Shown piece after piece: positions 4,251-24,632 of a stretch of 25,171 nucleotides of DNA. Position 1 is the stretch's first letter; every line of letters begins with the position of its first letter. Source of the DNA: a virus; the IMG/VR virus record IMGVR_UViG_3300032265_000773, positions 1-25,171 of that record. The stretch is one strand, 5' to 3'. The notes beneath the pieces are model-generated. The model was not told where the DNA came from. It searched no databases and saw only the letters and a list, made by a program, of their open reading frames with translations. The translations under genes were made by a program, and so were the position numbers.

Positions 4251-4694
4251 ATGAGTTCTCCTGCGACACTTTACAATAAAATAGTACTAACAGGTGCTAA
4301 AAATAATGATCAAAATATCCTACAGCAGTATAGGGGATTTAGCACAATCAGTCCTGATACAGAAAACTATGCACTGTATGATTATCAGTTAGTTAAACAA
4401 GATTTGTTAAACAGCTTTTATATTCGTCAAGGCGAGCGCCTAATGAATCCAACCTACGGATGTATCATATGGGATCTGTTGTTTGAGCCCTTAACAGACG
4501 GTCTTAAAAATCTTATTTTGCAAAATGTACAACAAATTGTTTCTAATGAACCAAGGGTACGTGCAGATCAAATTTTAGTTACTCCGTATGAAAGTGGAAT
4601 ACAAATAGAGCTACAGTTGACCTACATAACATATAATCTACAACAGTCCTTGCAGATTAAGTTTGATCAGGCCAACGGACTGATAACACAATAA
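4251..4694 (+). CDS. 25: Baseplate wedge protein gp25 (GPW/gp25, TssE family)
   Basis: A 147-aa protein of the gp25 family, the most widely conserved wedge protein of contractile tails and the equivalent of TssE in type VI secretion. Key features are 'VKQDLLNSFYIRQGERLMNP' (about 48-67), 'YGCIIWDLLFEPLT' (about 69-82), then 'VQQIVSNEPRVRADQILVTP' (about 93-112), which carries the family's E-P-R motif, and a C-terminal beta strand pair ('GIQIELQLTYI'). It binds gp6 and the sheath in the wedge core. Despite the historical label 'lysozyme-like', the family is structural. The start is two bases after the spike gene stop and is preceded by AAGGA at 4238-4242, an ideal 8-base spacer. Confidence 0.92.
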   Translation: MSSPATLYNKIVLTGAKNNDQNILQQYRGFSTISPDTENYALYDYQLVKQDLLNSFYIRQGERLMNPTYGCIIWDLLFEPLTDGLKNLILQNVQQIVSNEPRVRADQILVTPYESGIQIELQLTYITYNLQQSLQIKFDQANGLITQ

Positions 4695-4730: not shown

Positions 4731-4744
4731 AGGGATAATTCATG
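4731..4744 (+). promoter_or_regulatory. Ribosome binding site and ATG of gp6
   Basis: AGGGA at 4731-4735 lies 6 bases before the ATG at 4742. It follows the late-promoter-like box directly, so gp6 and the giant gene after it could be expressed from their own short-leader transcript as well as by read-through. Confidence 0.6.
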
Positions 4745-8446: not shown

Positions 8447-9700
8447 TAAAATTAATCCTAGTGCATCGACTAGCCAAGGTTCGGATTTAATTCCAAAAAT
8501 TTATCAGTCAGATGCTAATAAGAAATTCATCCAGGCAACAGTTGATCAACTAATACAACCAGGTACTGTTAACAAAGTTAATGGATACATTGGCCGAGAA
8601 AATGCCAAGGCATCAACTGGCACAGACATTTTTGTAGAAGCTGCTGATCAAACAAGACAGAATTATCAATTAGAACCTGGTTTAACTGTGCAGGACACAC
8701 TTGGGAATACAACATTTTTTAAAGATTATCAAGATTATATTAATCAATTAGCGGTGTTTGGCAGTAACACTCTTAATCATGCTAGATTAAACAAGCAAGA
8801 AATGTATTCTTGGGATCCGCACATTGACTGGGATAAGTTTGTAAATTTTAATGACTATTATTGGTTACCATACGGCCCTGATAGTATTCAGGTATATGGT
8901 CAGCAAAATGCAATTTCTAGTACCTATATTAGTATTGTAACACAGGACGAAAAAGGCAATGATCAATATGTGTTTACTCCGGACGGTCTAACACCTAATC
9001 CTACTATTAAGTTATATCGAGGCCAGACCTATCACTTTGATATTAATAGTCCGGGAAATCCGTTTACTATTAAAACATCAAGGACTCTTGGTGTTGTTGA
9101 CTACTATACACCACCGTCAGGTTTACCTAAAAATGCTGTAGAGATCGGAACAGTTACATTTACTGTGCCGGCTGATGCTCCAGATATTTTATATTACCTA
9201 AGTAATCGTGATCCTGATATAGGCGGTGTATTTGAAATATTTGACATAACTGAAAATACAGACCTTGATATTAATAAAGATGTATTAGGTAAAAAAACTT
9301 ATACTCTTCCCGACGGAACAGCATTAAGCAACGGAATGAAAGTACAGTTCCGTGGCAATGTAACTCCAAAAGAATATACAACGGGTAATTGGTATGTTGA
9401 AGGTGTAGGTACTGCAATCACCTTAGTTAACGAAACAACATTAGAAGTAATAAGTCCGTATACAACAAACGAAGCAATATTATTTGATACTACACCGTTT
9501 GATGCTAGACCGTTTGCTGATGCCAGCGGATTTGCAACTATTAAAGATTATATTCTTATTAATAGAGCTTCTCAAGATCATAATGCATGGTCAAGATATA
9601 ACCGTTGGTTTCATAAAGATGTTATTACAGCCAGTGCTAAAATTAATGGTAACATCCCAGAGTTAAATCAAGAAAGCCGCGCAATTCGACCTATCATAGA
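8439..9700 (+). other. N-terminal block of the giant protein
   Basis: Residues 1-420. The first 120 residues are mostly helical in appearance ('SDANKKFIQATVDQLIQPGT', 'VNGYIGRENAKASTGTDIFV', 'FFKDYQDYINQLAVFGS'), followed by the aromatic block 'YSWDPHIDWDKFVNFNDYYW' at about 122-141. After the cupredoxin-like domain comes 'INRASQDHNAWSRYNRWFHK' at about 373-392. These ungapped aromatic motifs look like a protein-protein interface and are the likely anchor to the baseplate wedge, by analogy with the conserved N-termini of wedge and fibre proteins. That anchoring role is inference. Confidence 0.45.
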
Positions 9701-12700
9701 ATTTGAACCGGATCTAAAATTATATAATTTTGGTAATGTAGCAATTAGCGATGTAGACGTTATCGACACAGTAACTACCGATGCCATGAGTATTGTTGAA
9801 GGCGCCATCGGATATATTGTAGATAGTGTTTCACTAATTGATGGTCATCGTGTGTTATTTGTTGCAGATACCGACGTCCTAGTAAAAAATCAAATATTCA
9901 CAGTACAATTTGTCACAGTTGGCGCTCGCCGACAAATACATTTAGTTCCGACTCAGACTCCAAATACAAATAATACTATTCTAGTCAAGAGTGGAAAAGT
10001 AAATCAGAGTAAGATGTTCTGGTATAATGGAGCAACATGGATTGAAGGTCAGCAAAAAACCTCCACAAACCAACCTCCACTTTTTGATATAGTTGATAGT
10101 AAACTGGTATCGTTTAGTGATACGTCATCAACAGCATATCCTGGTTCAACATTTAAAGGAACTACACTATTTTCTTATAAAGTAGGCACAGGGTCGTCCG
10201 ACGTTGCACTAGGATTCCCTCTTACTCATAAAAATATTGATAATATTGGAGATATTGTTTTTAATTTTGCACTAGCAACTGATGCATTTACCTACAAGAC
10301 TGCTAGTGATGTATTTTCAATTACGATTAATACTGGCTATCTAGTTAAGACAGGATACACACAACAATTAAGTTATGTCAACGGCTGGAAAACGTGTGTG
10401 GTGCCAATAACACAGGCAGCATTACGTATCTATAAAAATTCAAATAAAACAAATAACTTTGATATTGATATCTTTGATAATATTAATGATCTATCAGATC
10501 TAGTTATTCGCATCTATGTTAACGGCATACGTTCTGCTCCTGACAATTGGTCAGTAGTTAACGGAGTAGTGTATAAAAAGATTGTGTTTGTTACCCCAGT
10601 AAAAACCTCTGATGTAGTAACAATTAAAACCTATGCAGCACAACCAATTAATAGTAATGGGTACTATGAGATTCCAGCTGCCTTACAAAATAACCCATTT
10701 AACAATACAATTTTAGATTTCACATTAGGTGAAGTTATTGATCATGTTTCTAGTATAGTTGATAATGCACCTAAATTTATTGGAGCATATCCCGGTGCCA
10801 GTAACTTAAGAGATATTGGAAATTCAACGGCATACGGCACAAAATTTGTTCAACATAGCGGTCCGTTAAGTTTAGGGTTGTATCATATCACGACTGAATC
10901 TAATAATATTATTAAGGCAATTGAAAAATCAAGAGACGACTATCAAAGTTTCAAACGAAATTTTATAACAGTTGCTACTAGCCTAGGATTAGATACAGAT
11001 GTGGTCACACAAGTGAACACAATTTTACAGCGTATTAATCAAGATAAACCTAAGACAGGTGCATATTATTCTAGCGATATGGTTGCCTACGGCGCAGCAA
11101 TTCGCAGAGATCTAACAGTTGTAGATTATCGAATTAAGAATTATCCGCTAAGTTCAATATTCTCACTTGATGTATTATCGACAAAATCAGTACTTGTTTA
11201 TCTTAATGGGACACAACTACTCCACGGCAGAGACTACACATTTGATGGACAAGGATTTGTTGTAGTTACAGCAGTATTAGCCAACGGTGATAAAATTACC
11301 ACGTACGAATACGAAAACACAAATGGAAGTTTCATTCCAGAGACTCCTACTAAATTAGGATTATGGCCAAAGTATCAACCTAAGAAATATTTAGATACTA
11401 GCTTAATCACTCCTACAACAGTTATTCAAGGCCATGACGGTAGTCAAATTACTGCATATGGCGATTATAGAGATGCAATTATTTTAGAATTAGAGACACG
11501 TATCTATAATAATATTAAATCAAAATATGATAGTACAATATTTGATATCCACGATTTAATTCCTAGTTATAATAGAACTAATGATTATACTCTTGCAGAA
11601 TTTAATGAAGCCCTGTCGCCTAATTTTTACAAATGGGCAGTTAATATCGGTAGAGATTTTACTCAACCAGTTAGTTATGATAGAAATAATCCGTTAACAT
11701 TTAACTATCGCGGTCACTATGCGCCGGATGGCAGAGATATTCCAGGATACTGGCGTGGTGTATACCGCTGGATGTATGACACTGACAGACCAGGTCAAGC
11801 ACCTTGGGAGATGCTAGGCTTCACTGATCAACCAAGTTGGTGGACAAGTGTTTACGGTCCTGCACCCTATACTAGTGACAATTTAGTGATGTGGCAAGAT
11901 CTTGCTGCTGGACTAGTTAAAGATCCAGCCGGTGCACCGTATGTGATACCAAAATTTGTTAGATCATATTTGCTAGATCATATTCCAGTGGATGATCAAG
12001 GTAACATCCTTAGCCCATACCTGGCCGGAGTTGCCCGAGGTGTAAATACAAATTTAACAAATGCAGATTATGTATTTGGTGATGTAGGCCCAGTAGAAGC
12101 TACTTGGCGCCGCAGTAGTCACTATTCATTTAGCGTAATACGTACCGCGCTAGTATTGCTACCAGCAAAGACATTTGGTGTATTATTAGATCGTTCAAGG
12201 ATAGTTCGCAATATAGCCGGGCAATTAATCTATAGTAATACTGGACTGCGTGTTCGTCCTAATGATATTCAGCTACCTAGCATATATTCTAGTACTACAG
12301 TATCACTAACTGCTGGTCTAATCAATTATCTTGTTGAGTATATTTTAAGTGATACATTATTAAGTTATAACGCTTATCAATATGATTTGACTCATATGAC
12401 TGCTAAGTTAAGTTATCGTGTTGGCGCATTTACTAGCAAAGAAAAATTTAATTTATTATTAGATAGTAAAACACCATTAAGTACAGGCAGTATTTTTGTT
12501 CCGCAAGAAAACTATAATATTATATTAAACAGTTCAAGCCCTATAAAAAAGATAACCTATAGCGGAGTTATTGTTAATAAGCTATCTAATCGATTCGAAA
12601 TACGCGGATATAGTCAAACAGTACCATATTTTAAATATTATCAATATCTAGGATCAGGGGCTACCATCAACGTAGGTGGTATTAGCGAAAGCTATGCAAC

Positions 12701-15700
12701 CTGGACTCCTTATCAACAATATATTTCAGGACAAGTTGTTGAGCATAATAAGCAATACTATCGTGTAATTTCAACACACACTACCGATACAGCATTTATA
12801 GCAAAATATTATTCTCGATTATCAAGTTTACCTATCGTAGGAGGAACCGAGGTAGTATTAAGAACAAAATGGGATAGAAAAAAACCTATAGTAGTACCGT
12901 ATGGTACTGATTTTACAACTATACAACAAGTTGTTGATTTCTTACAGGGCTACGGCGAGTACTTAAAAGATCAAGGATTTGTGTTTGATGAATTCAATAC
13001 AAATCTTGCATCTGTGACAAACTGGGAAACTAGTGCAAAAGAATTTGTTTTCTGGACAACACAAAATTGGTCAACCGGTCAAGATAAATGGAAAGACTGG
13101 ATTCCTAATCAACCAATTGCATACCAAGAAATTGTAAAATATAATGGTGAGTATTATCAAGCCATACAAAAAATACTACCAACCGCAACCTTTGATTCAA
13201 CAAAATATGTTAAGTTAGACGGCCTTAGCTCAGTGGGCAGTTCAGTAATTAGTTTAAGTCCAGCAGCAGATTCAATTACATTTGCAACACCGTTGTCAGT
13301 AGCTGACAGCATAGAAAATTCATTTAATAATTATGAAATATTTAAAGTAGACGGTACCCCTCTCCAACCAAATTTTATTAACTTGTACAGAAAAGATAAT
13401 ACTACTACTTACAAGACAACAACTGCCGATGGAATATATGGTGCAAGTTTCTATCTAGTACAAAAAGAACAGATAATTTTATTAGATAATTCTACATTGT
13501 TTAATGACACAATTTATAATCCCGAAACAGGTTATCGCCAAGAGCGTATCAAAGTATCTGGATATGTAAGTACTAACTGGTACGGCGGATTTGATGTACC
13601 AGGTTTTATCTTTGATCAAGCAGTAATTCAATATTGGCAGCCGTGGCAAGATTACTCGCTAGGTGACACTGTAAAATATAAAGAATTTTATTATAGTGCC
13701 GACCAACGTGTTGTTGGATCAGAAAAGTTTAGTGAAAAGGCAGTTGATGGATCAATAAACTGGGTAAGATTATTGTCTAAACCATCTGCACAATTACTTC
13801 CTAACTGGACATATAAAGCTAGTCAATTTACAGATTTCTATAGCCTAGATAGCGATAATTTTGATGCTAGCCAGCAGAAGGTTGCACAACATTTAATTGG
13901 ATATCAAAAGCGTCAATACTTGAGTAATATTATTCAAGACGATGTGAGCGAATTTAAATTCTATCAAGGAATGATTCGTGAAAAGGGAACACAAAATGTT
14001 CTTAATAAATTATTTGATGTACTTAGTGCAGATAATAAAGAAAGTTTAACATTCTACGAAGAGTGGGCGGTCCGCCTTGGTGAATATGGTGCAAGTAAAG
14101 CATATGAACAAATTGAATTTACATTAGATGAGGCATTATTTAAAAATAATCCTCAAGGTATCCAACTAACAGATGCGTTAACACCGCCGTACTATGATTT
14201 AGTTATAAGACAAACACCTACAGACATTTACCTAAAACCGATCGGGTATAATAGTAATCCGTGGCCGCTAGTGAATAATTATCGTGCATTTTTAAGGTCC
14301 GCTGGATTTCCAAGACTTAGTGATGTTAAGACGTCCGTGGCTCATTTAAGTGACATATTATCTGTAGATATCACATCTTTCTATGCCGGAGATTATATTT
14401 GGGTAGGATTTGAAGGAATTAGTTGGAATGTTTACAGACTAACGGCTTCATATATTAATGTCCTAGACATTGCATATTCAAATAATCAGTTAGTCATTAC
14501 ATCCGATGCCGATCATACATTATTTGTTGGCGACTATATTGGTATCAAAGAAGTTACTGGATTTGCAGGGTTCTATCGAGTCGCTGCTGTTAGCAATGTA
14601 ACAATTACTATTGATGCCCCAAATTTACTTAATCCTCCAAGTTCTCCATTTGCTGAACAGCATCGAGTAATAATTTATTTGTTGACCAGTAGTAGAGCTC
14701 CTAGTATTAATGAAGGTGATCAACGCTTACTGCGTGACATCAAAGTCGGGGAGAAAGTCTGGATTGATTCTGCAACATTCAATGGTCAACAGTTATGGTC
14801 AACCTGGGAAAACATTCCAGTTTATAACCCATCAGAATTAGTCTACGGATTTCCGTCAAATGGACTGGCTCTTGGTAGATCAGTAAGTTTAAGTCAAGAT
14901 GGTTTGTTATTAGTATCTAGTACAAATCTAGGCCAAATATTTGTTTGGGATAAATCAACAGCTACTTCGATCAATTGGACTCAGCGCGAATCTATAGATG
15001 TTCCGTTGATTGCAAAAAGTGATGACTTTGGGGTTAATCCTAATTCTAACAGTATCATTGGCGAAACACTAGCATTGAGTTATGATAGCAACTGGTTAGC
15101 AGTAGGAACACCGTCTGCTAGTTATGCTGCTAGTCATTGGAAATTATCTTGGGTACAATCTAGCACCTACAGTACACGTGATTTAGTAGAATATAACGGA
15201 TTATATTATCAGGCAACTACTGCTGTTCCTGTTAATACTCCGCCTGTAGTAACAGCAACAGTACAGAGTATTGTGGCCTATTCTCTAATCACTTCGTCAA
15301 CAGTTGGTACTAATGTAAGTCCATACTCTGTAAATTACAAACCAACAGGGACTTTTACAACATTATCAAATATTACTGTAAATGGTACTACCGGACTATA
15401 TGTGGGACAAAATGTCTCCGGTGTTGGTATAGCCAACGACACTTATATTAGTGCAGTGGTTATAAATGTTAATAATACAGCTACACTATCATTAACTAAG
15501 CCTGTTATTTCAGTTACTGCATCGACTACACTTACATTTGGTGGTATAGTTAAGGTTGTTGCCGGCACATCAGTATTTCAAACTACATCAATTAAAGTTG
15601 ATACTACTCAAGGAATTATTCCTGGAATGTTGGTTACTGGTGCGGGTATGTCAGCCGGCACACTGGTCATCAGTGTAGATACAACTAATAATGTTATTAT

Positions 15701-18700
15701 TTTAGATACACCAACGTATGGTCAACCAAGCGGTAAAACATTATTTGGAACAAATACAATTTCCATACCAGCAGCATCTGCTGTCGGCATATCATTAGGT
15801 ATGACAGCAATTGGTGTTAATATACCTGCTAATACTACAGTAACTGGCAGTACTTTTATCAGTTCTACCACAACATATATTTTGTTTCTAAGTCAGCAAG
15901 TAACAGGCACAGTTACCAGCACAGGCACGTTTGCGTTAGTTGCAAAACAGACTACGGCTACTATTGGATCTACTACTCTAACAGTTGCTGACAATACAAA
16001 TATCCTTATTGGTCAAACTGTGTCTGGAACAGGAATTCCAGCAAGTGCAACAGTTACAAATATCAGTGGTACAACAATAACAATTAGTACTCCTACAACT
16101 GGCCTAGTCAACTCTGTTGCTGTATTTGGCCGAAATCAAATAACAGTATTGAGTTTGCTAGGTACAATCTTGCCTACACAACTGGTAATAGGAAGTACTA
16201 TACCAGCACTAACAACTGTGACAAAAAAATCAGGATCTACTGTATTCTTAAATACTAACATTACACAAACAGTATCTGGCATTTTAGAATTTACTGGAAC
16301 TTCAAACTATTGGACACCGGTAGAATATATTCCAGTTGATGTAACAGGTACAAATAGTTCATTAACAGCACAAGGGGCTGTTAGCATTTATAAAAAAGAT
16401 AGTAATAATATCTTTACTTTAGTAGATACTATCCTTAGTCCGCTCCCAACGACTAATGAACGATTTGGTGCCAGCCTAGCATTTGTAAACCATCCGTCGC
16501 CAACCGGGCAGTCAGCATACAGTCTGTTTGTTGGAGCTCCGGGAGCAGACAGCGGTGCTGGCAGGGTATATCAACTAAAATATGAAAATTTTATACAGGC
16601 AGTTAGCGAATACAACTCAAATGGTAGTAGTAATACCGCAGTAGTACAACTTATAGTGACCGCATCAGGTAGCGGTTATATTACAAATCCTAGTGTGAAT
16701 ATTGCTGCTCCTACTGTATCCGGTGGTGTTCCAGCAACTGCAACCTCAACAATTGGTGTTGTTAATATCACCTTAATCGCAACCGGCCGCGGCTATCAAA
16801 CTAATGATCTTCTTACTGTTATAGGCGGTGTATTTGCTCCTGCGGTGTCGTCTACCACTCAGATTGCAACCATTAGAGTAGTATCAGTCAACGGGATTGG
16901 TGCGATTACTTCAGCAGTTGTTTATAGTCCGGGGACCTATACTACAGCGGCAACTACCACAGTTTCCAGAATAACTACAACTAAAAATATTCCTGTATCT
17001 GGTGGCCATGGTATCGGTGCAACATTTGATTTACTTTACGGAGTGGTATCAATTCAGGTTGTGACTCCCGGATCTGGTTATGATAAAAAGACACTACCAT
17101 TAATAACATTTTCAAGCACCACAGGTGCCGGAGCAGCAGCCTACGCATCAATTGGCAGTACCATAAGCGTATCCGATACCACAAATATTTCACCAGGCAT
17201 GCTGATAAGCAATGCAATAACAGTAAACGGAGTAACTACAATAGGTAAGGCATTTGATTCAGCTCAGACAGTATCACAAGTCATACAAAATCCGTTATAC
17301 CCTACAGTCACAGCAGGCATCCTTGTAATCAGTGCAGCTCCTACCGAAACACCTAAAGGTGTCCTATACTTTACTACTCCTTCGTGGGCATATAATTCTA
17401 CGCTTACTGCACCATCGGGACAATACGGATTTGGTGCTACATTAGTGACTAACACTAGCGGTATAGGTAATTCATTAGCAGTAGGAGCACCTGGTCAAAC
17501 TGTTGCAGCTATCATAGGTGGAGTGCGAACAATCCAAGTAACCCCGGGAGCAGCAACAGTGTTCCGATATGACAAAGCTACTGATATATGGTATCAGTTA
17601 CAGGTATTACCTGGAACAGTATATAACTATGGCTCATCGGTAGCATTATCATCTTACGGCGGCCCACTGAATTTTCAAAGATACGAGACACTGCCTTTTG
17701 TAGAATATCTAGCAGTAGGTAGTCCGTTAGATGGTTCGGGGAAAGTTGAAGTATATTATTTTGATGATACAGCATATCGATTTGTACGATATCAAGAATT
17801 ATTCAATACCCGCCCTAAAAACCAAGGACAATTTGGATATAAGTTAGCGTTTGGTTATATATCTGATACTCTAGTAGTATATAGTAACAACGCAGATGCA
17901 CTAGTTACTACCATGTTCGATGGTGAGGATACAATATTTGACAGTAAGTCGACAAAATTCAGACACAACGAAATAAATTCTGGCAGCATATCTGTATACG
18001 ATGCAGATTCAAATACCGGAACAAAATTTACATTTGGAGAGATGTTAGTAAACCCTGCACCTTCAAACAGTAAGTTTGGAAATAGTTTTGCGATCGGAAC
18101 ATGGAATATTGTTGTAGGTGCACCGACTGCTGTTATTAATGCAGTATTAGAAAATTGTACGATTACTGGAACAATATTAACAGTAGGAACAACAGTAGCT
18201 GGTCAAGTAGTTGCCGGCATGATATTATCAGGTCAAGGTATTGCTACCGGAACAACTGTAGTAAGCGGTAGTTCTGGAATATACGTAGTTAGTATTAGTC
18301 AAACAGTAGCTAATGCAACCATTACTGGTACTAGCACGGTATCATCAGGAAAGATATATGAGTATACTAAACCTCCAGGAACGTTTGCATGGAATGTAGT
18401 GCATCTTGAAGAACCAAAAGTTGATATCAGTAAGATAAAACGTGCCTTTATATATGATAAAATTACGAATCAAGTAATTACATATCTTGATGTGATTGAT
18501 CCTATTCAAGGTCGCATAGCCGGCCCAGCCGATCAAGAAATTAAATATAAATCGTTTGATGATCCTGCAATTTATAGTCAAGGTGATTCCTCAGTAACAG
18601 TAAAACCCGGTATGGCATGGGGTCCTAAGCAAGTAGGACAGTTATGGTGGGATTTAAGCACTGCTAAGTTTATTGATAGTCACGATAATGATACTGCATA

Positions 18701-21700
18701 CAGAACAAGTAACTGGTCTACAATATTTCCGGGAGCAAGTATTGATATCTACGAATGGGTAGCTACTAGCTATACTCCAGATAGATGGAACAGTTTAGCC
18801 GATACTGATGCAGGATTAACTCAAGGAATTAGTGGAAAGACGTTATACGATGCTTCAATATACAGCATTGAAACAAAGTATGACACTATCAGTAATAGTG
18901 CTAAGAATACTTACTATTTCTGGGTAAAAAACAAAACCACAGTACCGAATACGCTAGGTCGATCTATAAGTGCCCAAAGTGTTTCAAATCTTATTGCTAA
19001 TCCGAGAGGCGAAGGTTATAAATTCCTTGCACTTACTGGGTCAAGTAGTATGGCATTATTCAATGTCAAACCACTATTGAAGAATACTAATGCAGTGTTA
19101 TCAGTAGAATATTGGACTTTAGATAATCCAGATCAACGAAACATACATCGGCAGTATGCTATTATCAGCAATGATTCTAATATAACACTACCTGCAAAAA
19201 TTGAAGAAAAATGGATTGACAGTTTATGCGGTAAAGATGCAAATGATCGAGAGGTACCTGATTCAAGTTTACCTTCTAAACTTCGTTATGGAATAGAATT
19301 CCGTCCTCGTCAAAGTATGTTTATAAATCGATACGAAGCATTAAAACAAGTTATCGAACAAACTAACTTAGTAATGGCTGTTAATCAAATTGCTGAGCAA
19401 CGCGATATACAAGCATTAGATACTTACGAAGCAGAACCAAATATACTACTTGGCGAGTACGATGCTGTAAAAGATACTGATACTGAATTATCGTATATTA
19501 ATATTGGAAATTTTGTTGCCCCTACACTAGCTCCAATTATTGTAGATGGTAAAATCGTTGGAATTAATATTGTAAATTCCGGCAGCGGATATTTACAAGC
19601 ACCATATATTTTAGTTGTAGGTAGTGGCGTTGATGCAGTACTTCGTGCAGTTATCGATAGTGTGACAGGCGGAGTCATTGATGCAACAGTTATTTCTACA
19701 GGAAACGGCTATGATGATAATACAGTATTAATCACTAGACCATATTCAGTACTGGTACATCAAGATACCCAAGCAGGCAACTCTTGGAGTATCTACGGAT
19801 ATGATTCATCAACTACTCCACCAACTTGGTCAAGAGTTAAAACACAAAGTTATGACGTAAGAAAGTATAGAACCTATATTGATTGGTATGCTGATAATTT
19901 TAATCAAAATACCAGTCCAACATTTGCCGTTGAAACTTTTACAGAATTAGCAACAATTTCATCGGCAATAGGCGATATTGTTAAGGTAAAAAATAATAGT
20001 AAGGGCGGATGGACATTATTACAAAAATATGCCAACAGTGCAAGTGTTGACTATACACAAAGCTATCATGTAGTAGGCATTGAACGCGGAACTATACAAT
20101 TTAGTTCTGCACTTTATAAATTTACCGATACAGTTTACGGATATGATGGCTCATTATATGATGGTAATAACTTTGATTTAACAGCTACTAACGAATTAAG
20201 AATTATTCTTAACACAATAAAAAATAATATCTTAACTGGTAATCTAAAAAAACATTATTTAGATTTATTCTTTTATAACGTTCGATATGCATTTAGTGAA
20301 CAGACCGAATTAGATTGGATTTTTAAAACTAGTTTTATCAGAGCTGAACACAATGTTGGAGATCTAAATCAACCAGTAACGTATCAACCTGACAATTTAA
20401 ATAATTTTGAAGATTATATCAACGAAGTTAAACCCTATAGAACTAAGATTCGAGAATATATTAGTAACTACAGTAAAGTTGATATTAATCAAAATATGAT
20501 CAGCGACTTTGATCTTCCAGGTGTATATGCAAATGGTCTATTTCAAGGTATTAATACCGGTATAAGCAACGGTACGATTACTGCTGATAATAATTTAATT
20601 ACAACGTATCCGTGGAAAAATTGGTTAGATAATGTTGGATTTAGTGTTGTTGATCTTAAAATTGTCGACAGCGGAAGCGGCTACATTAGTGAACCTATTG
20701 TAGAATTTACTAGCTCTTCAGGATCAGGAGTAAAAGCACGTGCATTTATAGCCAGCGGAAAAGTTAACAGAATAGAATTAACCAATACAGACTCATACGG
20801 CGGTAGTGGCACCGGATATTTGTCAGCCCCAACTATTACACTAAGCGGCGGATATGATGGTACCACCGGTCGTCCAGCAAAGGTTGTAGCAATTATTGGC
20901 AACAGCGTAATACGTACTAATACTATTGGAATTAAGTTTGATCGTATAACACAAAATTATTTTGAAACTAATCTAGCACACACAGAAACATTTACTGGTA
21001 CAGGATCACGTGTACAATTTGATTTAGCATGGGCACCAAATCTCACTATTGGAAATTGTACAGTATCAATCGCATCACCAAAAAGTCTTAGCCACTCGGT
21101 CCCAGTCTTACGTGATTTGTATACTTTAGCAATCACCAGTGATAAATCTAGAGGTTATACTAATCACTATGGTACAATTACATTTATAAATGCGCCAGCT
21201 AAGGATTCTAAAATAACTATAAACTATAATGCAGATTGGTCCTTATTAAATGCAGCCGATCGTATTCAATTCCTGTATAATCCGCAATCCGGACAACAAG
21301 GTAAAGATCTAGCACAGTTAATGACCGGCATCGATTACGGTGGGGTAATTGTCGATGGAATTGGCTTTGAAATTAATTCAGGTTGGGGAAGTGCTCCTTA
21401 CTACTCCGATAAATGGGATAGCGTCGATGCTACCTCTAATGACTATATCGTAAAAGTATCTGCAAATACCCATACGTTTACATTACCGTATACTCCGAGT
21501 GCCGGCACACTGTTGAACATTTACTATAGTCAATTCTACACTGAAACATTTGCTAGTGACGGAGCAGCATTGACTTATACTTACAACAAGAGAGATATTG
21601 CTCCAGCAGTAATAGTTACAGCATCTTCGGCAGTGGGAACAGCTCATAGTGTATCGGGTAGCACATATTTGAGTAATAAAGCAGGAAGTAATGTGATCTC

Positions 21701-24632
21701 GCTGGTAAGTACCACCGGAATTAATGTTAATGATAGAATTACAATTTCACCATATGTAGCAAATACGATTACCCTTGATACTAAAGTAACAGCAATTTTA
21801 AATTCTACCGATGTACAAATTAGTCAAATATTGTATACTAATATTGCTAATGGATCTATATTATCATTTACTAGGGAATTAACAGTTCTTACTCAACTTG
21901 ATCCGTTTGGAAACGGGTTGATAACATTGAACACACCGATAGTAGTTGCTTCAAGTGGATCAACAATTTCTATTAGTAGCTATCTGCAGCCAATTCGAAT
22001 AGACGATGAGCATTACGGTTCTCCGCAGGCTATTAATACCAATGCAGTTATGCAGACCGTAGTTGCCGATGGTATATCTAAGGTTGTTACAATACCAAAT
22101 ACATATCCTGTATTTGCTGGAGACGAATTTATTATTCGTCAAAGTACAAGTGACGGAGCATTTGCTCCACAGCAAGCAGACTATGATACTGCACTAACAG
22201 GCGGTGATCTTGCATATAGCTCAGCAACTGGTATAGCCGCAGACGATATTTTAGTTGATGGCGACCAATTTGTAACGCCTACATCAAGTCCTGCTCCTGA
22301 AGAAGTAGTTCCAGGACAAGTTGTTGATGCAGTTGCAATTAAGATATTTGAAAAACCTTTATCAGGTTCTGCCACTATTAAAGTTGACAACTACTTTACT
22401 GACGGTATTACTACTAAGTTTAAAATGACACAACTACCTAATAGCGAAGGTGCTGTAATAGTAAAAACAGTCTCAATGGGCGTAACTCAAATTATGACAG
22501 TAATAGATGATTATACTATCGATTATAGGAATAGTCAAATTCTATTTAATAGCCCCCCGACTGTTGGTACAATGGTGAGTATCTTTAATATTGGATACAA
22601 TGGTTCAAATATTTTAGATATTGATCATTTTATTGGCGACGGAACTACTACAGAATTTGTTACCAAGGCCAACTATATTACACCGACAACTAGCTTAGTA
22701 TATGTTGACGGTACAGCACAGTCCAGCGTAGCATATGAGTTATTTAAAACTGATAAAACTTATGCTCTTTCAGGATTGATGGGATTGAGATTCGCCAAAC
22801 CTCCAGCAGCTGGTTCGTTAATTAATTATGTTATTGTTAGCGGTAGCCAACAGAGCTTTGCGGTTACCAAGAAAGAAAGGATTACTCCTAACGGTAACGC
22901 TACCTACAACTTACAATATCCTATTGGTAATTCAAAACCACTTGAAAAGAGCATGATTGTTAGAGTAGATAATTCAATATTACAACCGCCAAGTCTTAGT
23001 TATTTCACAGTAGCAAACAACAAATTAAATTATGTAATTGACAATATTAAATTCCGTCCGTTTACAGCTAATGCCGCAGATTTTGTAGTAACCGCAAATG
23101 GAAAACTTTTACAACCTGGAGTTGACTATACTGTTGATCTTAGTGGTATAACAGTAAAAATTACCAAGGTGGTTTATAGTTTATATAAAGGCACTACCTT
23201 GGCAGTAAGTATCGGTACAGGTGCTGGATATACTTATAATTCTTCCACAGGTCAAATTACATTTGCACAAAATTATGATGCAGGACACATTATTGAAGTC
23301 ATGTCTAGTTACAATCATGACATTCTCGACATGCAAACTACTACAGTTAATAATAACCCAACATTGACTTACACACCAGATACTTTAGAATTTTATAATT
23401 ATAAGTCTATAGCAAATGGTACAATAATATTAGATCGACCAGTAGTTGATAGTGACTACGTATGGCTAGAACAAAATGGCAACTTACTAAGTCCAAATAT
23501 TGATTATATTGTGTTGGACGACAAGCAGACATTGCAAATGGCTAAATTACCAGCGCCTAATGATAAACTTGTTGTGTTAACTTTTAGTAATAACATATTA
23601 AAATCTGGAATAGCATACATGCAATTTAAAGATATGTTAAACAGAGTTATATTCAAACGTCTTAATGCCGCAAAACAAACTAAATTAGCTATTGATTTAT
23701 ATCCAACTGATACTACAATTACAGTACTAGATGCTAGCTCTTTTGATTTACCAAGTCCTGCGAATAACAAACCTGGTATTATAGAAATAAGAGGCGAACG
23801 TATTGAGTTCTTTACGCTAACTGGAAATGTATTAGGACAGTTACGTAGAGGTACACTCGGTACCGGAGTCGGCGATGTTCATCGCTCAGGTGCTACAGTG
23901 CAAGAAATTGGTGCTAGCGAAACAATCCCGTATCAAGATATTATTAGTACAAGTCAAGTTGTCGGCGATGGTACAAATATTGTACCTTTATCATTCACAC
24001 CTATGTCAGATGTTATTGCAAACGGGCATACTCATAAATCAACTGTTGATTGGAAGAAAACATATCCAGCTGGATTCATGTCATCAATCCCAGATGGATT
24101 TAATCAAGCCGATGATATTGATGTGTTTGTTGGTGGATACAATGCAGTAGATTGGAAGTCAGGTGTATCTTACTCTGTAGGCGACATTGTTAATTTTGCA
24201 TCATATCAATACAAGTGTGTAGTTGCAAATACTAGTACTACTAACTTTAATAATGATATTGCCAACTGGTCATATTTTATCGGAAATATTCGCTTGAAGA
24301 AAGAACCATATAAGGTTTACAATGTTAGCCAAGCACCTAATAGTCCAGAAGGTGATGTACAGTTTGATGCTGAATTTGTAGTCGACGGCACTACTAATTC
24401 GTTAAGATTAACTACGCCTGTGGCGGCAGGAACTAGGGTAACAGTAGTTAAGAGAACTGGAAAAATTTGGGATTCTACTGTAAATATACAAGAGGATACA
24501 AATCCGTATGCTATTTTTGTTAAAGCAGTACCTGGTGCATGGTACACCGGATATAATCAACATCAGATTTTAAGCATTGATAGCACAAATATCAGTGACG
24601 ATAACACTAACATAACGATTGACCAAGGATAA
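8439..24632 (+). CDS. Giant multi-domain virion structural protein (gp7 position)
   Basis: One uninterrupted frame encodes 5397 aa, roughly 580 kDa. The ATG overlaps the gp6 stop by 8 bases and lacks a good ribosome site (only CGGA upstream), so translation is probably coupled to gp6. I do not recognise a single family. A scaffold of aromatic-rich blocks reminiscent of large marine T4-like phage structural proteins ('DWDKFVNFNDYYWLPYGP', 'YDTDRPGQAPWEMLGFTDQP', 'FEDYINEVKPYRTKIREY', 'SPEGDVQFDAEFVVDGTTNS') is interspersed with modules: cupredoxin-like (about 175-275), five CBM5/12-like modules, an FG-GAP propeller (about 2138-3327), G-S-G-Y modules, eight G-M-x-V modules and C-terminal fibre modules. 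No peptidase, lyase, intein or membrane segment is evident. It occupies the slot of T4 gp7, suggesting a baseplate-peripheral or host-contact role; that role is inference. Confidence 0.8.
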   Translation: MADKINPSASTSQGSDLIPKIYQSDANKKFIQATVDQLIQPGTVNKVNGYIGRENAKASTGTDIFVEAADQTRQNYQLEPGLTVQDTLGNTTFFKDYQDYINQLAVFGSNTLNHARLNKQEMYSWDPHIDWDKFVNFNDYYWLPYGPDSIQVYGQQNAISSTYISIVTQDEKGNDQYVFTPDGLTPNPTIKLYRGQTYHFDINSPGNPFTIKTSRTLGVVDYYTPPSGLPKNAVEIGTVTFTVPADAPDILYYLSNRDPDIGGVFEIFDITENTDLDINKDVLGKKTYTLPDGTALSNGMKVQFRGNVTPKEYTTGNWYVEGVGTAITLVNETTLEVISPYTTNEAILFDTTPFDARPFADASGFATIKDYILINRASQDHNAWSRYNRWFHKDVITASAKINGNIPELNQESRAIRPIIEFEPDLKLYNFGNVAISDVDVIDTVTTDAMSIVEGAIGYIVDSVSLIDGHRVLFVADTDVLVKNQIFTVQFVTVGARRQIHLVPTQTPNTNNTILVKSGKVNQSKMFWYNGATWIEGQQKTSTNQPPLFDIVDSKLVSFSDTSSTAYPGSTFKGTTLFSYKVGTGSSDVALGFPLTHKNIDNIGDIVFNFALATDAFTYKTASDVFSITINTGYLVKTGYTQQLSYVNGWKTCVVPITQAALRIYKNSNKTNNFDIDIFDNINDLSDLVIRIYVNGIRSAPDNWSVVNGVVYKKIVFVTPVKTSDVVTIKTYAAQPINSNGYYEIPAALQNNPFNNTILDFTLGEVIDHVSSIVDNAPKFIGAYPGASNLRDIGNSTAYGTKFVQHSGPLSLGLYHITTESNNIIKAIEKSRDDYQSFKRNFITVATSLGLDTDVVTQVNTILQRINQDKPKTGAYYSSDMVAYGAAIRRDLTVVDYRIKNYPLSSIFSLDVLSTKSVLVYLNGTQLLHGRDYTFDGQGFVVVTAVLANGDKITTYEYENTNGSFIPETPTKLGLWPKYQPKKYLDTSLITPTTVIQGHDGSQITAYGDYRDAIILELETRIYNNIKSKYDSTIFDIHDLIPSYNRTNDYTLAEFNEALSPNFYKWAVNIGRDFTQPVSYDRNNPLTFNYRGHYAPDGRDIPGYWRGVYRWMYDTDRPGQAPWEMLGFTDQPSWWTSVYGPAPYTSDNLVMWQDLAAGLVKDPAGAPYVIPKFVRSYLLDHIPVDDQGNILSPYLAGVARGVNTNLTNADYVFGDVGPVEATWRRSSHYSFSVIRTALVLLPAKTFGVLLDRSRIVRNIAGQLIYSNTGLRVRPNDIQLPSIYSSTTVSLTAGLINYLVEYILSDTLLSYNAYQYDLTHMTAKLSYRVGAFTSKEKFNLLLDSKTPLSTGSIFVPQENYNIILNSSSPIKKITYSGVIVNKLSNRFEIRGYSQTVPYFKYYQYLGSGATINVGGISESYATWTPYQQYISGQVVEHNKQYYRVISTHTTDTAFIAKYYSRLSSLPIVGGTEVVLRTKWDRKKPIVVPYGTDFTTIQQVVDFLQGYGEYLKDQGFVFDEFNTNLASVTNWETSAKEFVFWTTQNWSTGQDKWKDWIPNQPIAYQEIVKYNGEYYQAIQKILPTATFDSTKYVKLDGLSSVGSSVISLSPAADSITFATPLSVADSIENSFNNYEIFKVDGTPLQPNFINLYRKDNTTTYKTTTADGIYGASFYLVQKEQIILLDNSTLFNDTIYNPETGYRQERIKVSGYVSTNWYGGFDVPGFIFDQAVIQYWQPWQDYSLGDTVKYKEFYYSADQRVVGSEKFSEKAVDGSINWVRLLSKPSAQLLPNWTYKASQFTDFYSLDSDNFDASQQKVAQHLIGYQKRQYLSNIIQDDVSEFKFYQGMIREKGTQNVLNKLFDVLSADNKESLTFYEEWAVRLGEYGASKAYEQIEFTLDEALFKNNPQGIQLTDALTPPYYDLVIRQTPTDIYLKPIGYNSNPWPLVNNYRAFLRSAGFPRLSDVKTSVAHLSDILSVDITSFYAGDYIWVGFEGISWNVYRLTASYINVLDIAYSNNQLVITSDADHTLFVGDYIGIKEVTGFAGFYRVAAVSNVTITIDAPNLLNPPSSPFAEQHRVIIYLLTSSRAPSINEGDQRLLRDIKVGEKVWIDSATFNGQQLWSTWENIPVYNPSELVYGFPSNGLALGRSVSLSQDGLLLVSSTNLGQIFVWDKSTATSINWTQRESIDVPLIAKSDDFGVNPNSNSIIGETLALSYDSNWLAVGTPSASYAASHWKLSWVQSSTYSTRDLVEYNGLYYQATTAVPVNTPPVVTATVQSIVAYSLITSSTVGTNVSPYSVNYKPTGTFTTLSNITVNGTTGLYVGQNVSGVGIANDTYISAVVINVNNTATLSLTKPVISVTASTTLTFGGIVKVVAGTSVFQTTSIKVDTTQGIIPGMLVTGAGMSAGTLVISVDTTNNVIILDTPTYGQPSGKTLFGTNTISIPAASAVGISLGMTAIGVNIPANTTVTGSTFISSTTTYILFLSQQVTGTVTSTGTFALVAKQTTATIGSTTLTVADNTNILIGQTVSGTGIPASATVTNISGTTITISTPTTGLVNSVAVFGRNQITVLSLLGTILPTQLVIGSTIPALTTVTKKSGSTVFLNTNITQTVSGILEFTGTSNYWTPVEYIPVDVTGTNSSLTAQGAVSIYKKDSNNIFTLVDTILSPLPTTNERFGASLAFVNHPSPTGQSAYSLFVGAPGADSGAGRVYQLKYENFIQAVSEYNSNGSSNTAVVQLIVTASGSGYITNPSVNIAAPTVSGGVPATATSTIGVVNITLIATGRGYQTNDLLTVIGGVFAPAVSSTTQIATIRVVSVNGIGAITSAVVYSPGTYTTAATTTVSRITTTKNIPVSGGHGIGATFDLLYGVVSIQVVTPGSGYDKKTLPLITFSSTTGAGAAAYASIGSTISVSDTTNISPGMLISNAITVNGVTTIGKAFDSAQTVSQVIQNPLYPTVTAGILVISAAPTETPKGVLYFTTPSWAYNSTLTAPSGQYGFGATLVTNTSGIGNSLAVGAPGQTVAAIIGGVRTIQVTPGAATVFRYDKATDIWYQLQVLPGTVYNYGSSVALSSYGGPLNFQRYETLPFVEYLAVGSPLDGSGKVEVYYFDDTAYRFVRYQELFNTRPKNQGQFGYKLAFGYISDTLVVYSNNADALVTTMFDGEDTIFDSKSTKFRHNEINSGSISVYDADSNTGTKFTFGEMLVNPAPSNSKFGNSFAIGTWNIVVGAPTAVINAVLENCTITGTILTVGTTVAGQVVAGMILSGQGIATGTTVVSGSSGIYVVSISQTVANATITGTSTVSSGKIYEYTKPPGTFAWNVVHLEEPKVDISKIKRAFIYDKITNQVITYLDVIDPIQGRIAGPADQEIKYKSFDDPAIYSQGDSSVTVKPGMAWGPKQVGQLWWDLSTAKFIDSHDNDTAYRTSNWSTIFPGASIDIYEWVATSYTPDRWNSLADTDAGLTQGISGKTLYDASIYSIETKYDTISNSAKNTYYFWVKNKTTVPNTLGRSISAQSVSNLIANPRGEGYKFLALTGSSSMALFNVKPLLKNTNAVLSVEYWTLDNPDQRNIHRQYAIISNDSNITLPAKIEEKWIDSLCGKDANDREVPDSSLPSKLRYGIEFRPRQSMFINRYEALKQVIEQTNLVMAVNQIAEQRDIQALDTYEAEPNILLGEYDAVKDTDTELSYINIGNFVAPTLAPIIVDGKIVGINIVNSGSGYLQAPYILVVGSGVDAVLRAVIDSVTGGVIDATVISTGNGYDDNTVLITRPYSVLVHQDTQAGNSWSIYGYDSSTTPPTWSRVKTQSYDVRKYRTYIDWYADNFNQNTSPTFAVETFTELATISSAIGDIVKVKNNSKGGWTLLQKYANSASVDYTQSYHVVGIERGTIQFSSALYKFTDTVYGYDGSLYDGNNFDLTATNELRIILNTIKNNILTGNLKKHYLDLFFYNVRYAFSEQTELDWIFKTSFIRAEHNVGDLNQPVTYQPDNLNNFEDYINEVKPYRTKIREYISNYSKVDINQNMISDFDLPGVYANGLFQGINTGISNGTITADNNLITTYPWKNWLDNVGFSVVDLKIVDSGSGYISEPIVEFTSSSGSGVKARAFIASGKVNRIELTNTDSYGGSGTGYLSAPTITLSGGYDGTTGRPAKVVAIIGNSVIRTNTIGIKFDRITQNYFETNLAHTETFTGTGSRVQFDLAWAPNLTIGNCTVSIASPKSLSHSVPVLRDLYTLAITSDKSRGYTNHYGTITFINAPAKDSKITINYNADWSLLNAADRIQFLYNPQSGQQGKDLAQLMTGIDYGGVIVDGIGFEINSGWGSAPYYSDKWDSVDATSNDYIVKVSANTHTFTLPYTPSAGTLLNIYYSQFYTETFASDGAALTYTYNKRDIAPAVIVTASSAVGTAHSVSGSTYLSNKAGSNVISLVSTTGINVNDRITISPYVANTITLDTKVTAILNSTDVQISQILYTNIANGSILSFTRELTVLTQLDPFGNGLITLNTPIVVASSGSTISISSYLQPIRIDDEHYGSPQAINTNAVMQTVVADGISKVVTIPNTYPVFAGDEFIIRQSTSDGAFAPQQADYDTALTGGDLAYSSATGIAADDILVDGDQFVTPTSSPAPEEVVPGQVVDAVAIKIFEKPLSGSATIKVDNYFTDGITTKFKMTQLPNSEGAVIVKTVSMGVTQIMTVIDDYTIDYRNSQILFNSPPTVGTMVSIFNIGYNGSNILDIDHFIGDGTTTEFVTKANYITPTTSLVYVDGTAQSSVAYELFKTDKTYALSGLMGLRFAKPPAAGSLINYVIVSGSQQSFAVTKKERITPNGNATYNLQYPIGNSKPLEKSMIVRVDNSILQPPSLSYFTVANNKLNYVIDNIKFRPFTANAADFVVTANGKLLQPGVDYTVDLSGITVKITKVVYSLYKGTTLAVSIGTGAGYTYNSSTGQITFAQNYDAGHIIEVMSSYNHDILDMQTTTVNNNPTLTYTPDTLEFYNYKSIANGTIILDRPVVDSDYVWLEQNGNLLSPNIDYIVLDDKQTLQMAKLPAPNDKLVVLTFSNNILKSGIAYMQFKDMLNRVIFKRLNAAKQTKLAIDLYPTDTTITVLDASSFDLPSPANNKPGIIEIRGERIEFFTLTGNVLGQLRRGTLGTGVGDVHRSGATVQEIGASETIPYQDIISTSQVVGDGTNIVPLSFTPMSDVIANGHTHKSTVDWKKTYPAGFMSSIPDGFNQADDIDVFVGGYNAVDWKSGVSYSVGDIVNFASYQYKCVVANTSTTNFNNDIANWSYFIGNIRLKKEPYKVYNVSQAPNSPEGDVQFDAEFVVDGTTNSLRLTTPVAAGTRVTVVKRTGKIWDSTVNIQEDTNPYAIFVKAVPGAWYTGYNQHQILSIDSTNISDDNTNITIDQG
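8960..9262 (+). other. Cupredoxin-like domain lacking copper ligands
   Basis: Residues about 175-275 of the giant protein show the phage plastocyanin-like pattern: 'TIKLYRGQTYHFDINSPGNP' with 'FTI', a loop with 'YYTPPSGLP', 'GTVTFTVPADAP', then 'ILYYLSNRDPDIGGVFEI'. Related domains in marine phages typically have 'GHP' and 'YYYCxNHxGMGG', supplying the His, Cys, His and Met copper ligands. Here the same positions read GNP and YYLSNRDPDIGG, so all four ligands are replaced. The fold is probably kept as a beta-sandwich without copper. The family consensus is from memory, and the alignment is by eye. Confidence 0.55.
10480..11340 (+). other. Fibre-type beta modules and helical segment of the giant protein
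   Basis: Two segments follow a 'V.VNG......W.V..GV..F..P...D.V.I..Y' pattern: residues about 685-735 ('LVIRIYVNGIRSAPDNWSVV', 'IVFVTPVKTSDVVTIKTYA') and about 913-960 ('VLVYLNGTQLLHGRDYTFDG', 'FVVVTAVLANGDKITTYEYE'). This is the small beta-sandwich unit common in phage tail fibres. Between them, about 817-880 is charged and helical-looking ('IIKAIEKSRDDYQSFKRNFI'). Confidence 0.4.
11443..12260 (+). other. Aromatic-rich scaffold block of the giant protein
   Basis: Residues about 1002-1275. Distinctive runs are 'GHDGSQITAYGDYRDAIILE' with 'LETRIYNNIKSKYD', 'PDGRDIPGYWRGVYRWMYDT' with 'DRPGQAPWEMLGFTDQPSWW', 'SDNLVMWQDLAAG', and 'EATWRRSSHYSFSVIRTALV'. The density of Trp, Tyr and charged residues and the lack of low-complexity sequence set it apart from the Thr/Val-rich inserted modules. 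I recall similar blocks in large uncharacterised structural proteins of marine T4-like phages. Function unknown; likely a structural core. Confidence 0.45.
12692..12828 (+). other. CBM5/12-like module 1
   Basis: Residues about 1419-1463: 'YATWTPYQQYISGQVVEHNK' followed by 'QYYRVISTHTTDTAF'. The pattern W-x(3-4)-Y-x(2)-G-x-V-V-x-x-x-x-x-Y-Y-x-V matches the core of carbohydrate-binding module families 5/12 (chitin-binding type 3), short three-stranded domains with surface aromatics. In phage tail proteins such modules are plausible glycan contacts. Binding is not shown by sequence alone. Confidence 0.5.
13068..13232 (+). other. CBM5/12-like module 2
   Basis: Residues about 1544-1598: 'WKDWIPNQPIAYQEIVKYNG' followed by 'EYYQAIQKILPTATFDSTKY'. 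It has the 'Y...E.V.YNG.YYQA......P...F' pattern of CBM5/12, with a Lys-Tyr-Val end in place of the usual closing Trp. It is preceded by a Trp-rich stretch ('EFVFWTTQNWSTGQDKW'). Confidence 0.5.
13627..13780 (+). other. CBM5/12-like module 3
   Basis: Residues about 1730-1780: 'YWQPWQDYSLGDTVKYKEFY' then 'YSADQRVVGSEKF' and the closing 'NWVRL'. This is the most complete match to CBM5/12 in the protein: W, Y-S-x-G-D-x-V, Y-Y-x-A and a terminal W are all in place. Confidence 0.55.
13938..14420 (+). other. Second scaffold block of the giant protein
   Basis: Residues about 1834-1994: 'DDVSEFKFYQGMIREKGTQN', 'VLNKLFDVLSADNKESLTFY', 'EEWAVRLGEYGASKAYEQIE' and then 'YRAFLRSAGFPRLSDVKTSV'. The first part is clearly helical and charged; the second resembles a conserved 'FLR.AGF.R..DV' block that I associate with large marine phage structural proteins. 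It precedes the FG-GAP propeller and is not repeated elsewhere in the gene. Confidence 0.45.
15135..15246 (+). other. CBM5/12-like module 4, N-terminal half (split)
   Basis: Residues about 2233-2269: 'HWKLSWVQSSTYSTRDLVEY' followed by 'NGLYYQATTAVPVNTPP'. It matches CBM5/12 up to the 'N.PP' that normally comes a few residues before the final Trp. Here no Trp follows. The expected ending, 'NYWTPV', appears about 350 residues later at base 16305. The module itself sits within or next to propeller blade 2. Confidence 0.55.
15300..16300 (+). repeat. Array of five G-M-x-V-x-G-x-G-I beta modules interrupting CBM module 4
   Basis: Five diverged units of roughly 60-70 residues follow each other: 'TTGLYVGQNVSGVGIANDTY' (15382), 'TTQGIIPGMLVTGAGMSAGT' (15603), 'VGISLGMTAIGVNIPANTTV' (15782), 'NTNILIGQTVSGTGIPASAT' (15997) and a degraded 'TQLVIGSTIPALTTVTK' (16177). 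Each continues with a 'V..V....T..LS.P' strand pair and ends near 'F.G' or 'FTG'. Protein similarity is clear but low; DNA copies have diverged, so the array is not recent tandem duplication. Composition is rich in Thr, Val, Ile, Ser and Gly. Confidence 0.65.
16302..16345 (+). other. CBM5/12-like module 4, C-terminal end
   Basis: Residues about 2622-2635, 'SNYWTPVEYIPVD', supply the closing aromatic strand expected after the N.PP of the module half at 15135-15246. The FG-GAP unit resumes soon after ('AVSIYKKDSNNIFTLVDTIL'). Confidence 0.45.
16645..17150 (+). repeat. G-S-G-Y beta modules between propeller blades 3 and 4
   Basis: Residues about 2737-2903 contain 'IVTASGSGYITNPSVNIAAP', 'ITLIATGRGYQTNDLLTV' and 'IQVVTPGSGYDKKTLPLITF', spaced with 'GATFDLLYG' and 'GAGAAAYA'. 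This is the phage module 'V.V...GSGY..PP.V.I.....GA.A.A'. The units separate 'GRVYQLKY' of blade 3 from the start of blade 4. Confidence 0.6.
17150..17400 (+). repeat. G-M module between propeller blades 3 and 4
   Basis: Residues about 2903-2986 read 'GSTISVSDTTNISPGMLISN' and 'AITVNGVTTIGKA', ending with 'GILVISAAPTETPKGVLYFT'. It is another, longer copy of the G-M-x-V module, directly after the G-S-G-Y units and before 'GQYGFGATLV', where the propeller resumes. Confidence 0.5.
18140..18342 (+). repeat. G-M module inside propeller blade 7
   Basis: Residues about 3235-3301: 'CTITGTILTVGTTVAGQVVA', 'GMILSGQGIATGTTVVSGSS' and 'GIYVVSISQTVANATITGTS'. This is the canonical form of the module ('G.ilTV.....G....GM..SG.GI..GT.V..g..G.Y.vs.sQTv....it'), which I recognise from phage tail proteins. 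It falls between 'IVVGAPTAV' and 'SGKIYEY', two strands of the same FG-GAP blade. Confidence 0.65.
18410..19440 (+). other. Third scaffold block of the giant protein
   Basis: Residues about 3325-3667, directly after the propeller: 'KRAFIYDKITNQVITYLDVI' with 'DPIQGRIAGPADQEIKYKSF', 'KQVGQLWWDLSTAKFIDSHD', 'RNIHRQYAIISNDSNITLPA' and 'LRYGIEFRPRQSMFINRYEA'. It has few low-complexity stretches and many Trp/Tyr/Arg residues, like the other scaffold blocks. It ends in a helical stretch around 'ALKQVIEQTNLVMAVNQIAE'. Confidence 0.4.
19543..19742 (+). repeat. G-S-G-Y module pair 2
   Basis: Residues about 3702-3768: 'IVGINIVNSGSGYLQAPYIL' and 'GGVIDATVISTGNGYDDNTV'. Two units of the G-S-G-Y type, set between 'TDTELSYINIGNFVAPTLAP' and an aromatic stretch containing 'SYDVRKYRTYIDWYADNFNQ'. 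Confidence 0.55.
20255..20525 (+). other. Fourth scaffold block (E-V-K-P-Y-R-T-K motif)
   Basis: Residues about 3940-4028: 'HYLDLFFYNVRYAFSEQTEL' with 'DWIFKTSFIRAEHNVGDL', then 'NFEDYINEVKPYRTKIREYI'. Mostly helical and charged, and reminiscent of a block that recurs in large marine T4-like structural proteins. Role unknown. Confidence 0.45.
20648..20900 (+). repeat. G-S-G-Y module pair 3
   Basis: Residues about 4070-4153: 'VVDLKIVDSGSGYISEPIVE', 'SGSGVKARAF' and 'GGSGTGYLSAPTITLSGGYD'. Again two units, placed immediately after scaffold block four and before the C-terminal fibre modules. Confidence 0.6.
20985..23600 (+). repeat. C-terminal series of fibre-type beta modules
   Basis: Residues about 4183-5053 hold roughly seven units of the pattern 'F.GDGTTT.F.L......V.V.VDG..Q....Y......I.F...PP..G..I.I.Y'. 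Clear starts are 'ETFTGTGSRVQFDLAW' (20988), 'ETFASDGAALTYTY' (21544), 'DNYFTDGITTKFKM' (22387), 'DHFIGDGTTTEFVT' (22624) and 'ERITPNGNATYNLQY' (22879); later units are 'FVVTANGKLLQPGVDYTV' (23083) and 'WLEQNGNLLSPNIDYIVL' (23464). Such units are common in tail fibres of marine myoviruses. A further G-M module copy (about 21680-21875, 'SNVISLVSTTGINVNDRITI') lies between the second and third. Confidence 0.55.
23695..23920 (+). other. TTITV..ASSF / RGTLGT module
   Basis: Residues about 5086-5161: 'TTITVLDASSFDLPSPA', 'GIIEIRGERIEFFTLTGNVL' and 'GQLRRGTLGTGVGDVHRSGA' before 'TVQEIG'. This follows the phage pattern 'T.I.V.d.s.FP..G...I.gE.I.Y.g..gN.l.gl.RG..GT....H..Ga.V', a small beta module of unknown function often found near the ends of large phage structural proteins. 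Confidence 0.45.
24145..24626 (+). other. CBM5/12-like module 5 and C-terminal cap of the giant protein
   Basis: Residues about 5237-5284, 'DWKSGVSYSVGDIVNFASYQ' with 'YKCVVANTSTTNF' and the closing 'NWSYF', are a near-complete CBM5/12 match. The module sits between 'ADDIDVFVGGYNA' and 'IRLKKEPYKVYNV', which look like adjacent parts of one domain. The cap continues with 'SPEGDVQFDAEFVVDGTTNS' and 'VAAGTRVTVVKRTGKIWD', a segment I recall from the C-termini of large cyanophage-type structural proteins. Confidence 0.5.

Follow-up and report, generated by a model that had tools for sequence, protein, structure and literature searches.

A predicted seven-bladed FG-GAP propeller of integrin-alpha type within a giant phage baseplate-locus protein

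What is a domain of the kind found in integrins doing inside a structural protein of a phage tail? The question is raised by a phage contig from IMG/VR, 25,171 bases long (the window, i.e. the whole stretch of DNA analysed here), in which a sequence-only reading had seen a seven-bladed FG-GAP propeller lying between two scaffold blocks of a baseplate-region protein. Our analysis makes it almost certain that an integrin-alpha-type FG-GAP propeller, closed and seven-bladed, has been inserted in frame into a giant baseplate protein. Such an in-frame propeller appears to be undescribed in the literature searched, where no paper mentions FG-GAP and phage baseplates in one context.

The baseplate locus and its giant protein

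Genes in T4 order run across the window (Table 1) and end with the giant open reading frame and the start of one more gene. By scaffold homology and by its position 3' of gp6, the giant protein is of the phrog_10938 type, and this match, with the gp5–gp25–gp6–giant gene order, bears out the assignment to the baseplate region. A gp6-like baseplate-wedge gene also lies directly 5' of the giant gene in PBECO4, XbC2, MIJ3 and Phosso. Only gene order points to a correspondence with gp7; hhalign of the scaffold profile against the single T4 gp7 sequence returned a probability of 0.7%. Phage CBB has a homologue of the giant-protein scaffold, and CBB_236, the protein at the giant-gene position in that phage, was detected in virions by mass spectrometry (PMC5259590).

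The phrog_10938 match to the giant frame breaks off at residue 1913 and restarts at 3297, leaving a gap of about 1384 residues in the query versus about 208 in the profile. The propeller, interrupted by insertions, occupies residues ~2127–3323 (window ~14817–18407). Of the boundaries first proposed for the flanking scaffold, the right-hand one stands, the block starting at ~18408 (residue ~3324), whereas the left-hand block ends at ~14807 (residue ~2123) and not at 14420. The HMM for the left block is imperfect, in that it drew in a second similar motif in some rows, and it was used for the window boundary and for one empty site (L167, below) only. Elsewhere in the giant protein, CBM5/12 modules scoring above the Pfam cut-off were seen at window positions 12699–12794 (residues 1421–1452) and 24153–24245 (5239–5269); judged by such matches, carbohydrate-binding modules recur along the protein.

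Table 1. Genes of the window and parts of the propeller, with residues numbered along the giant frame
Feature	Window position	Strand	Residues	Basis
Hub-like gene	492–2708			
gp5-like baseplate hub gene	2680–4248	+		phrog_13211, E 9e-45
gp25-like baseplate wedge gene	4251–4694	+		phrog_261, E 8e-20
gp6-like baseplate wedge gene	4742–8446	+		phrog_10646, E 7.5e-286
Giant baseplate-locus protein, 5397 aa, 3' of the gp5/gp25/gp6-like genes (T4 gene-7 position)	8439–24632	+		ORF; phrog_10938 virion structural protein, E 1.4e-162
Scaffold block 5' of propeller	14418–14807	+	1994–2123	Clade left-block HMM, iE 5e-33
N-terminal strand PVYNPSEL, positioned like the strand that integrins have N-terminal to blade 1	14817–14840	+		Integrin alignments start here (model residues 2 and 19)
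Blade 1	14862–14999	+	2142–2187	Blade HMM, alignment A2
Blade 2, strands 1–2	15054–15122	+	2206–2228	Blade HMM, alignment A2
Blade 2, 2-3 loop insertion, ~415 aa, with weak split CBM5/12 and repeat modules	15123–16367	+		Alignment A2
Blade 2, strands 3–4	16368–16448	+	2644–2670	Blade HMM, 19.3 bits
Blade 3, strands 1–3	16455–16589	+	2673–2717	Alignment A2, blade HMM
Blade 3, 3-4 loop insertion, ~263 aa, GSGY-type repeats	16590–17378	+		Alignment A2
Blade 3, strand 4	17379–17414	+	2981–2992	Alignment A2
Blade 4	17424–17606	+	2996–3056	Alignment A2, blade HMM
Blade 5	17619–17810	+	3061–3124	Alignment A2, blade HMM
Blade 6, with 29-aa insertion in 2-3 loop	17823–18062	+	3129–3208	Alignment A2, blade HMM, insertion count in homologues
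Blade 7, strands 1–2	18069–18128	+	3211–3230	Alignment A2, blade HMM
Blade 7, 2-3 loop insertion, ~69 aa	18129–18335	+	3231–3299	Alignment A2, insertion count in homologues
Blade 7, strands 3–4	18336–18407	+	3300–3323	Alignment A2, blade HMM
Conserved scaffold block 3' of propeller, common to PBECO4, MIJ3, Atu_ph07 and others	18408–18839	+	3324–3467	348 viral stretches match

Repeats and predicted fold of the propeller

Seven motif units had been read in order from the letters, and seven blades are indeed present, although the literal motifs are sparser than that reading implied: exact FG-x-[SA] occurs twice (residues 2676 and 3213) and exact [AV]VG[ATS]P four times (2221, 3014, 3092 and 3225), the remaining blades being degenerate (LGRS, IGET, FGAT, YGSS, FGYK). 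A blade HMM built from homologues only, with the window left out, recovered all seven window blades in their proper order (top scores 19.3, 15.1, 13.7, 12.0 and 9.6 bits); a chance origin of these matches was ruled out by 200 shuffles of the whole protein, of which the best reached 5.5 bits. Among natural versions the shortest are L056, L038, L036, L052 and L078; they lack the large insertions, and seven FG...GAP...GxVY units can be read in them. The Pfam FG-GAP search that had been suggested as a check found nothing above cut-off in the window protein alone (FG-GAP_2, 10 bits against a cut-off of 23), but FG-GAP_2 (PF14312) matched 14 of 15 homologues of one alignment with a best E of 3e-12, L056 scoring 30.3 bits and L013 54.3 bits; it is through these homologues and the fold that the window propeller belongs to FG-GAP_2.

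An AlphaFold2 model of L056, an insertion-poor natural homologue, made from an alignment of natural homologues (pLDDT 84.7, pTM 0.86), has two N-terminal strands followed by 28 propeller strands, i.e. seven sets of four, so that the count of seven holds where insertions are absent. When this model was compared with the PDB by VIA-align, integrin alpha chains came top (Z ~31 over ~330 residues, typically at 2.9–3.0 Å), with WD40 propellers next (Z ~29.5). The AlphaFold model of the window's own 1200-residue stretch, insertions included, is weaker (pLDDT 70, the blades mostly 80–92), and it aligns with integrin alphaL at Z 33.8 over 352 residues and 3.1 Å, wrapping the whole integrin propeller. 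We infer that the predicted propeller is closed from the complete strand sets and from the full-circle integrin alignment of both models, which together uphold the integrin-type fold first proposed.

Integrin alpha chains (alphaL, alphaM, alphaV, alpha5) share with the phage domain the seven FG-GAP blades and an N-terminal strand ahead of blade 1; they are its best structural match (Z 31–34) and the only PDB family returned by a search with the family sequence profile (alphaM, alphaX and alphaL, E 0.002–0.013). The phage propeller differs in that none of the DxDxDG calcium loops of the C-terminal integrin blades was found, the one loose stretch of this kind (DADSN, 3188) sitting 3' of blade 6 strand 3, outside any 1-2 loop. 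It is embedded in a phage structural protein, shows mostly 14–18% identity to integrins and is followed not by thigh/calf or transmembrane parts but by the phage scaffold common to PBECO4, MIJ3 and Atu_ph07. As both the calcium motifs and the downstream integrin domains are missing, it is of integrin-alpha type yet not an integrin.

Foldseek, on the other hand, ranked WD40 G-beta chains first by E-value. This ranking speaks for the main rival to a host-binding role, namely a function of the propeller as an assembly hub in the manner of a WD40/G-beta scaffold, whose docking partners on the baseplate would be short tail fibres, tail fibres or neighbouring wedges of the phage and not host molecules. 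The VIA-align order, with integrins above WD40 chains, and the integrin-only result of the profile search tell against such a hub, which we regard as unlikely, though the most serious of the alternatives.

Gain and retention of the propeller

Eighty viral loci with the scaffold block 3' of the propeller were taken for comparison, and every locus whose stored DNA spans the site has a propeller relative flanked by the same two blocks, which stand 438 to 1264 residues apart. PBECO4, XbC2, Vibrio phage 2.275, MIJ3, SCTP-2, Atu_ph07 and Phosso keep the scaffold and have no propeller at the site, and cultivated jumbo-phage relatives, including the PA5oct group, likewise have none between the scaffold blocks; a short linker or an unrelated segment stands at the insertion point in relatives of this kind. 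The phrog_10938 proteins of the PBECO4/RaK2/PA5oct type thus have the same scaffold on both sides and the same gene order, and differ in the absence of the propeller. The viral contig L167 offers a near-empty site, its blocks lying 59 residues apart where the profile expects 58, by a weak match (iE 0.012). In the tree of the scaffold 3' of the propeller a single change (SH-aLRT 93) splits 78 rows with the propeller from 12 without. Comparison of homologues thus finds that, between one and the same pair of scaffold blocks, some relatives have the propeller and others do not, and its insertion as a single unit, surmised from the window alone, is supported. These sequences are most simply explained by a single gain in the common ancestor of a large clade of uncultivated jumbo phages, followed by retention.

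One very divergent relative of the giant protein, on a deep, long branch (L168, 4800–6870), has a divergent, hard-to-detect FG-GAP propeller at the same site, with about seven blades by eye, which suggests that the insertion is old. A tblastn search of the GenBank phage collection found the propeller encoded in no record, a distant FG-GAP stretch in Phosso being the one exception, and no phage in that collection has it at the same place. When loci were scanned with the propeller of the window itself, a single locus was recovered, owing to the fast divergence of the propeller; alignment A3 was too divergent to serve for such a scan, and a scan with the SCTP-2 block returned no matches. When bacterial genomes were scanned for a connection to a host, the sole match was a relative of the giant protein that lacks the propeller, on a contig of a marine Gammaproteobacteria MAG (L090, NZGL01000008.1), which is probably mis-binned phage DNA.

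Retention at one fixed position in every sampled member is what an assembly hub would predict, and so is the finding that the propeller core tracks the scaffold, as if inherited with it, no signs of swapping between distant lineages being found across the homologues. Against a hub, the baseplates of the cultivated relatives are built without a propeller, and the propeller diverges faster than its scaffold, with a median pairwise identity of 0.37 for the core versus 0.59 and 0.65 for the flanks. A further alternative, that the propeller is a spacer with no ligand of its own whose insertions build up since its loops tolerate them, would suit the repeat-rich character and widely varying lengths of the insertions; however, a complete propeller persists in every member whose length allows a judgement, even at ~37% identity, and we consider a mere spacer very improbable.

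Insertions, precedents and a possible adhesin

By integrin convention the 2-3 and 4-1 loops form the upper, ligand-binding face. Long insertions were found in the 2-3 loop of blade 2 in 61 of 77 homologues, in the 2-3 loop of blade 6 in 62 and, at the commonest site, in the 3-4 loop of blade 3 in 68; outside this last site, nearly all long insertions in the 77 homologues are in 2-3 or 4-1 loops. Most insertions therefore sit in loops belonging to the integrin ligand face, where they recall the alpha-I domain, the blade 3 insertion on the opposite face being the exception. In the window, the blade 2 insertion gives a CBM_5_12 match at residues 2238–2262 (E 0.023, under cut-off), and those of several homologues are CBM5/12-like, all below the Pfam cut-off in the sequences scanned. 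Modules of ~70 aa with the pattern TVxxxxGIxxGMxVxGxGI recur in the propeller insertions (window 15585–16300 and 18171–18340), and inspection by eye suggests them in other parts of the giant protein as well as in the gp6-like frame; they are apparently mobile modules of baseplate genes.

The best overall explanation, which we hold to be moderately probable, is that the propeller serves as a peripheral adhesin platform of the baseplate. It would project from the baseplate periphery, its 4-1/2-3 loop face bearing variable loops and inserted modules, some of them resembling carbohydrate-binding modules; a protein or glycan of the bacterial envelope might then be bound by several copies per baseplate, an attachment that would set the baseplate in position or contribute to triggering contraction. 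The evolution of the propeller is adhesin-like, in that its core diverges faster than the flanks and long insertions, the blade 3 site apart, gather nearly all in 2-3 and 4-1 loops. We infer exposure and surface-ligand binding from the wedge position of the protein, the presence of CBB_236 in virions, the variability on the ligand face and the precedents of other phage propellers (phiKZ gp131C, phi11 Gp45 and PRD1 P2; PMC4901313).

These precedents also soften the view that a propeller in a phage tail protein is unusual. The C-terminal domain of phiKZ gp131 (PDB 4GBF), from a Pseudomonas myophage, is seven-bladed, lies at the baseplate periphery and has been suggested to bind a receptor (PMC4901313), but it is the C-terminal domain of another protein in a different phage group, and 4GBF is not among the best 50 matches listed for the L056 or the window model. 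The receptor-binding protein Gp45 of phi11, for which GlcNAc of wall teichoic acid is the proposed ligand (PMC4901313), is likewise a beta-propeller on a baseplate, though a five-bladed, trimeric separate protein of a siphophage. Among jumbo phages, integrin-like hemagglutinins with FG-GAP_2/integrin-like propellers are reported in Atu_ph07 and Sinorhizobium phage AP-J-162 (gp213) (PMC11242549); Atu_ph07 has the same giant baseplate scaffold, but these proteins of ~375–410 aa are encoded by separate genes and its giant baseplate protein has no propeller. In seven large contigs of the clade, FG-GAP_2 matches were found in five and were confined to the giant frame. The cultured Sinorhizobium phage Phosso (PV764938.1, 48386–68852 and 92370–93980) has 55 FG-GAP_2 matches outside its baseplate locus. 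The majority lie in a pair of giant proteins, with open frames of 3702 and 3182 aa, and further matches in a pair of small proteins of 429 and 398 aa, forming propeller-repeat arrays in a jumbo phage that has been cultured.

For adhesin function taken by itself we lean only slightly towards acceptance, and several observations count against it. Fast divergence can also reflect relaxed constraint, the commonest insertion is on the opposite face, the CBM5/12 matches of the blade 2 insertion do not reach the cut-off, and the integrin calcium motifs are missing; a host-range determinant might also be expected to show exchange between distant lineages, which was not seen for the propeller. A stronger version, in which the propeller would be the main irreversible receptor-binding head, hard-wired in the wedge protein, with exchangeable ligand-face modules working like the integrin alpha-I domain, seems to us rather doubtful. 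Processing of surface polysaccharide by the propeller or by modules inserted in it, as a depolymerase or lectin-enzyme, is highly unlikely: in several homologues the blade 2 loop holds a weak module of CBM5/12 type, and phage endosialidases with a propeller fold exist (PMC4901313), both of which would fit, but no glycosidase or lyase family was matched in the window or its homologues, and the top fold matches are non-enzymatic integrins.

The propeller illustrates how the baseplates of T4-like jumbo phages grow by the insertion of whole domains into conserved scaffolds, here a complete adhesion-type propeller that was apparently gained once and then kept. If host binding holds true, the receptor-binding head would be situated in the baseplate wedge itself and not on a fibre, and the natural empty-site and insertion-poor relatives make this reading directly testable.
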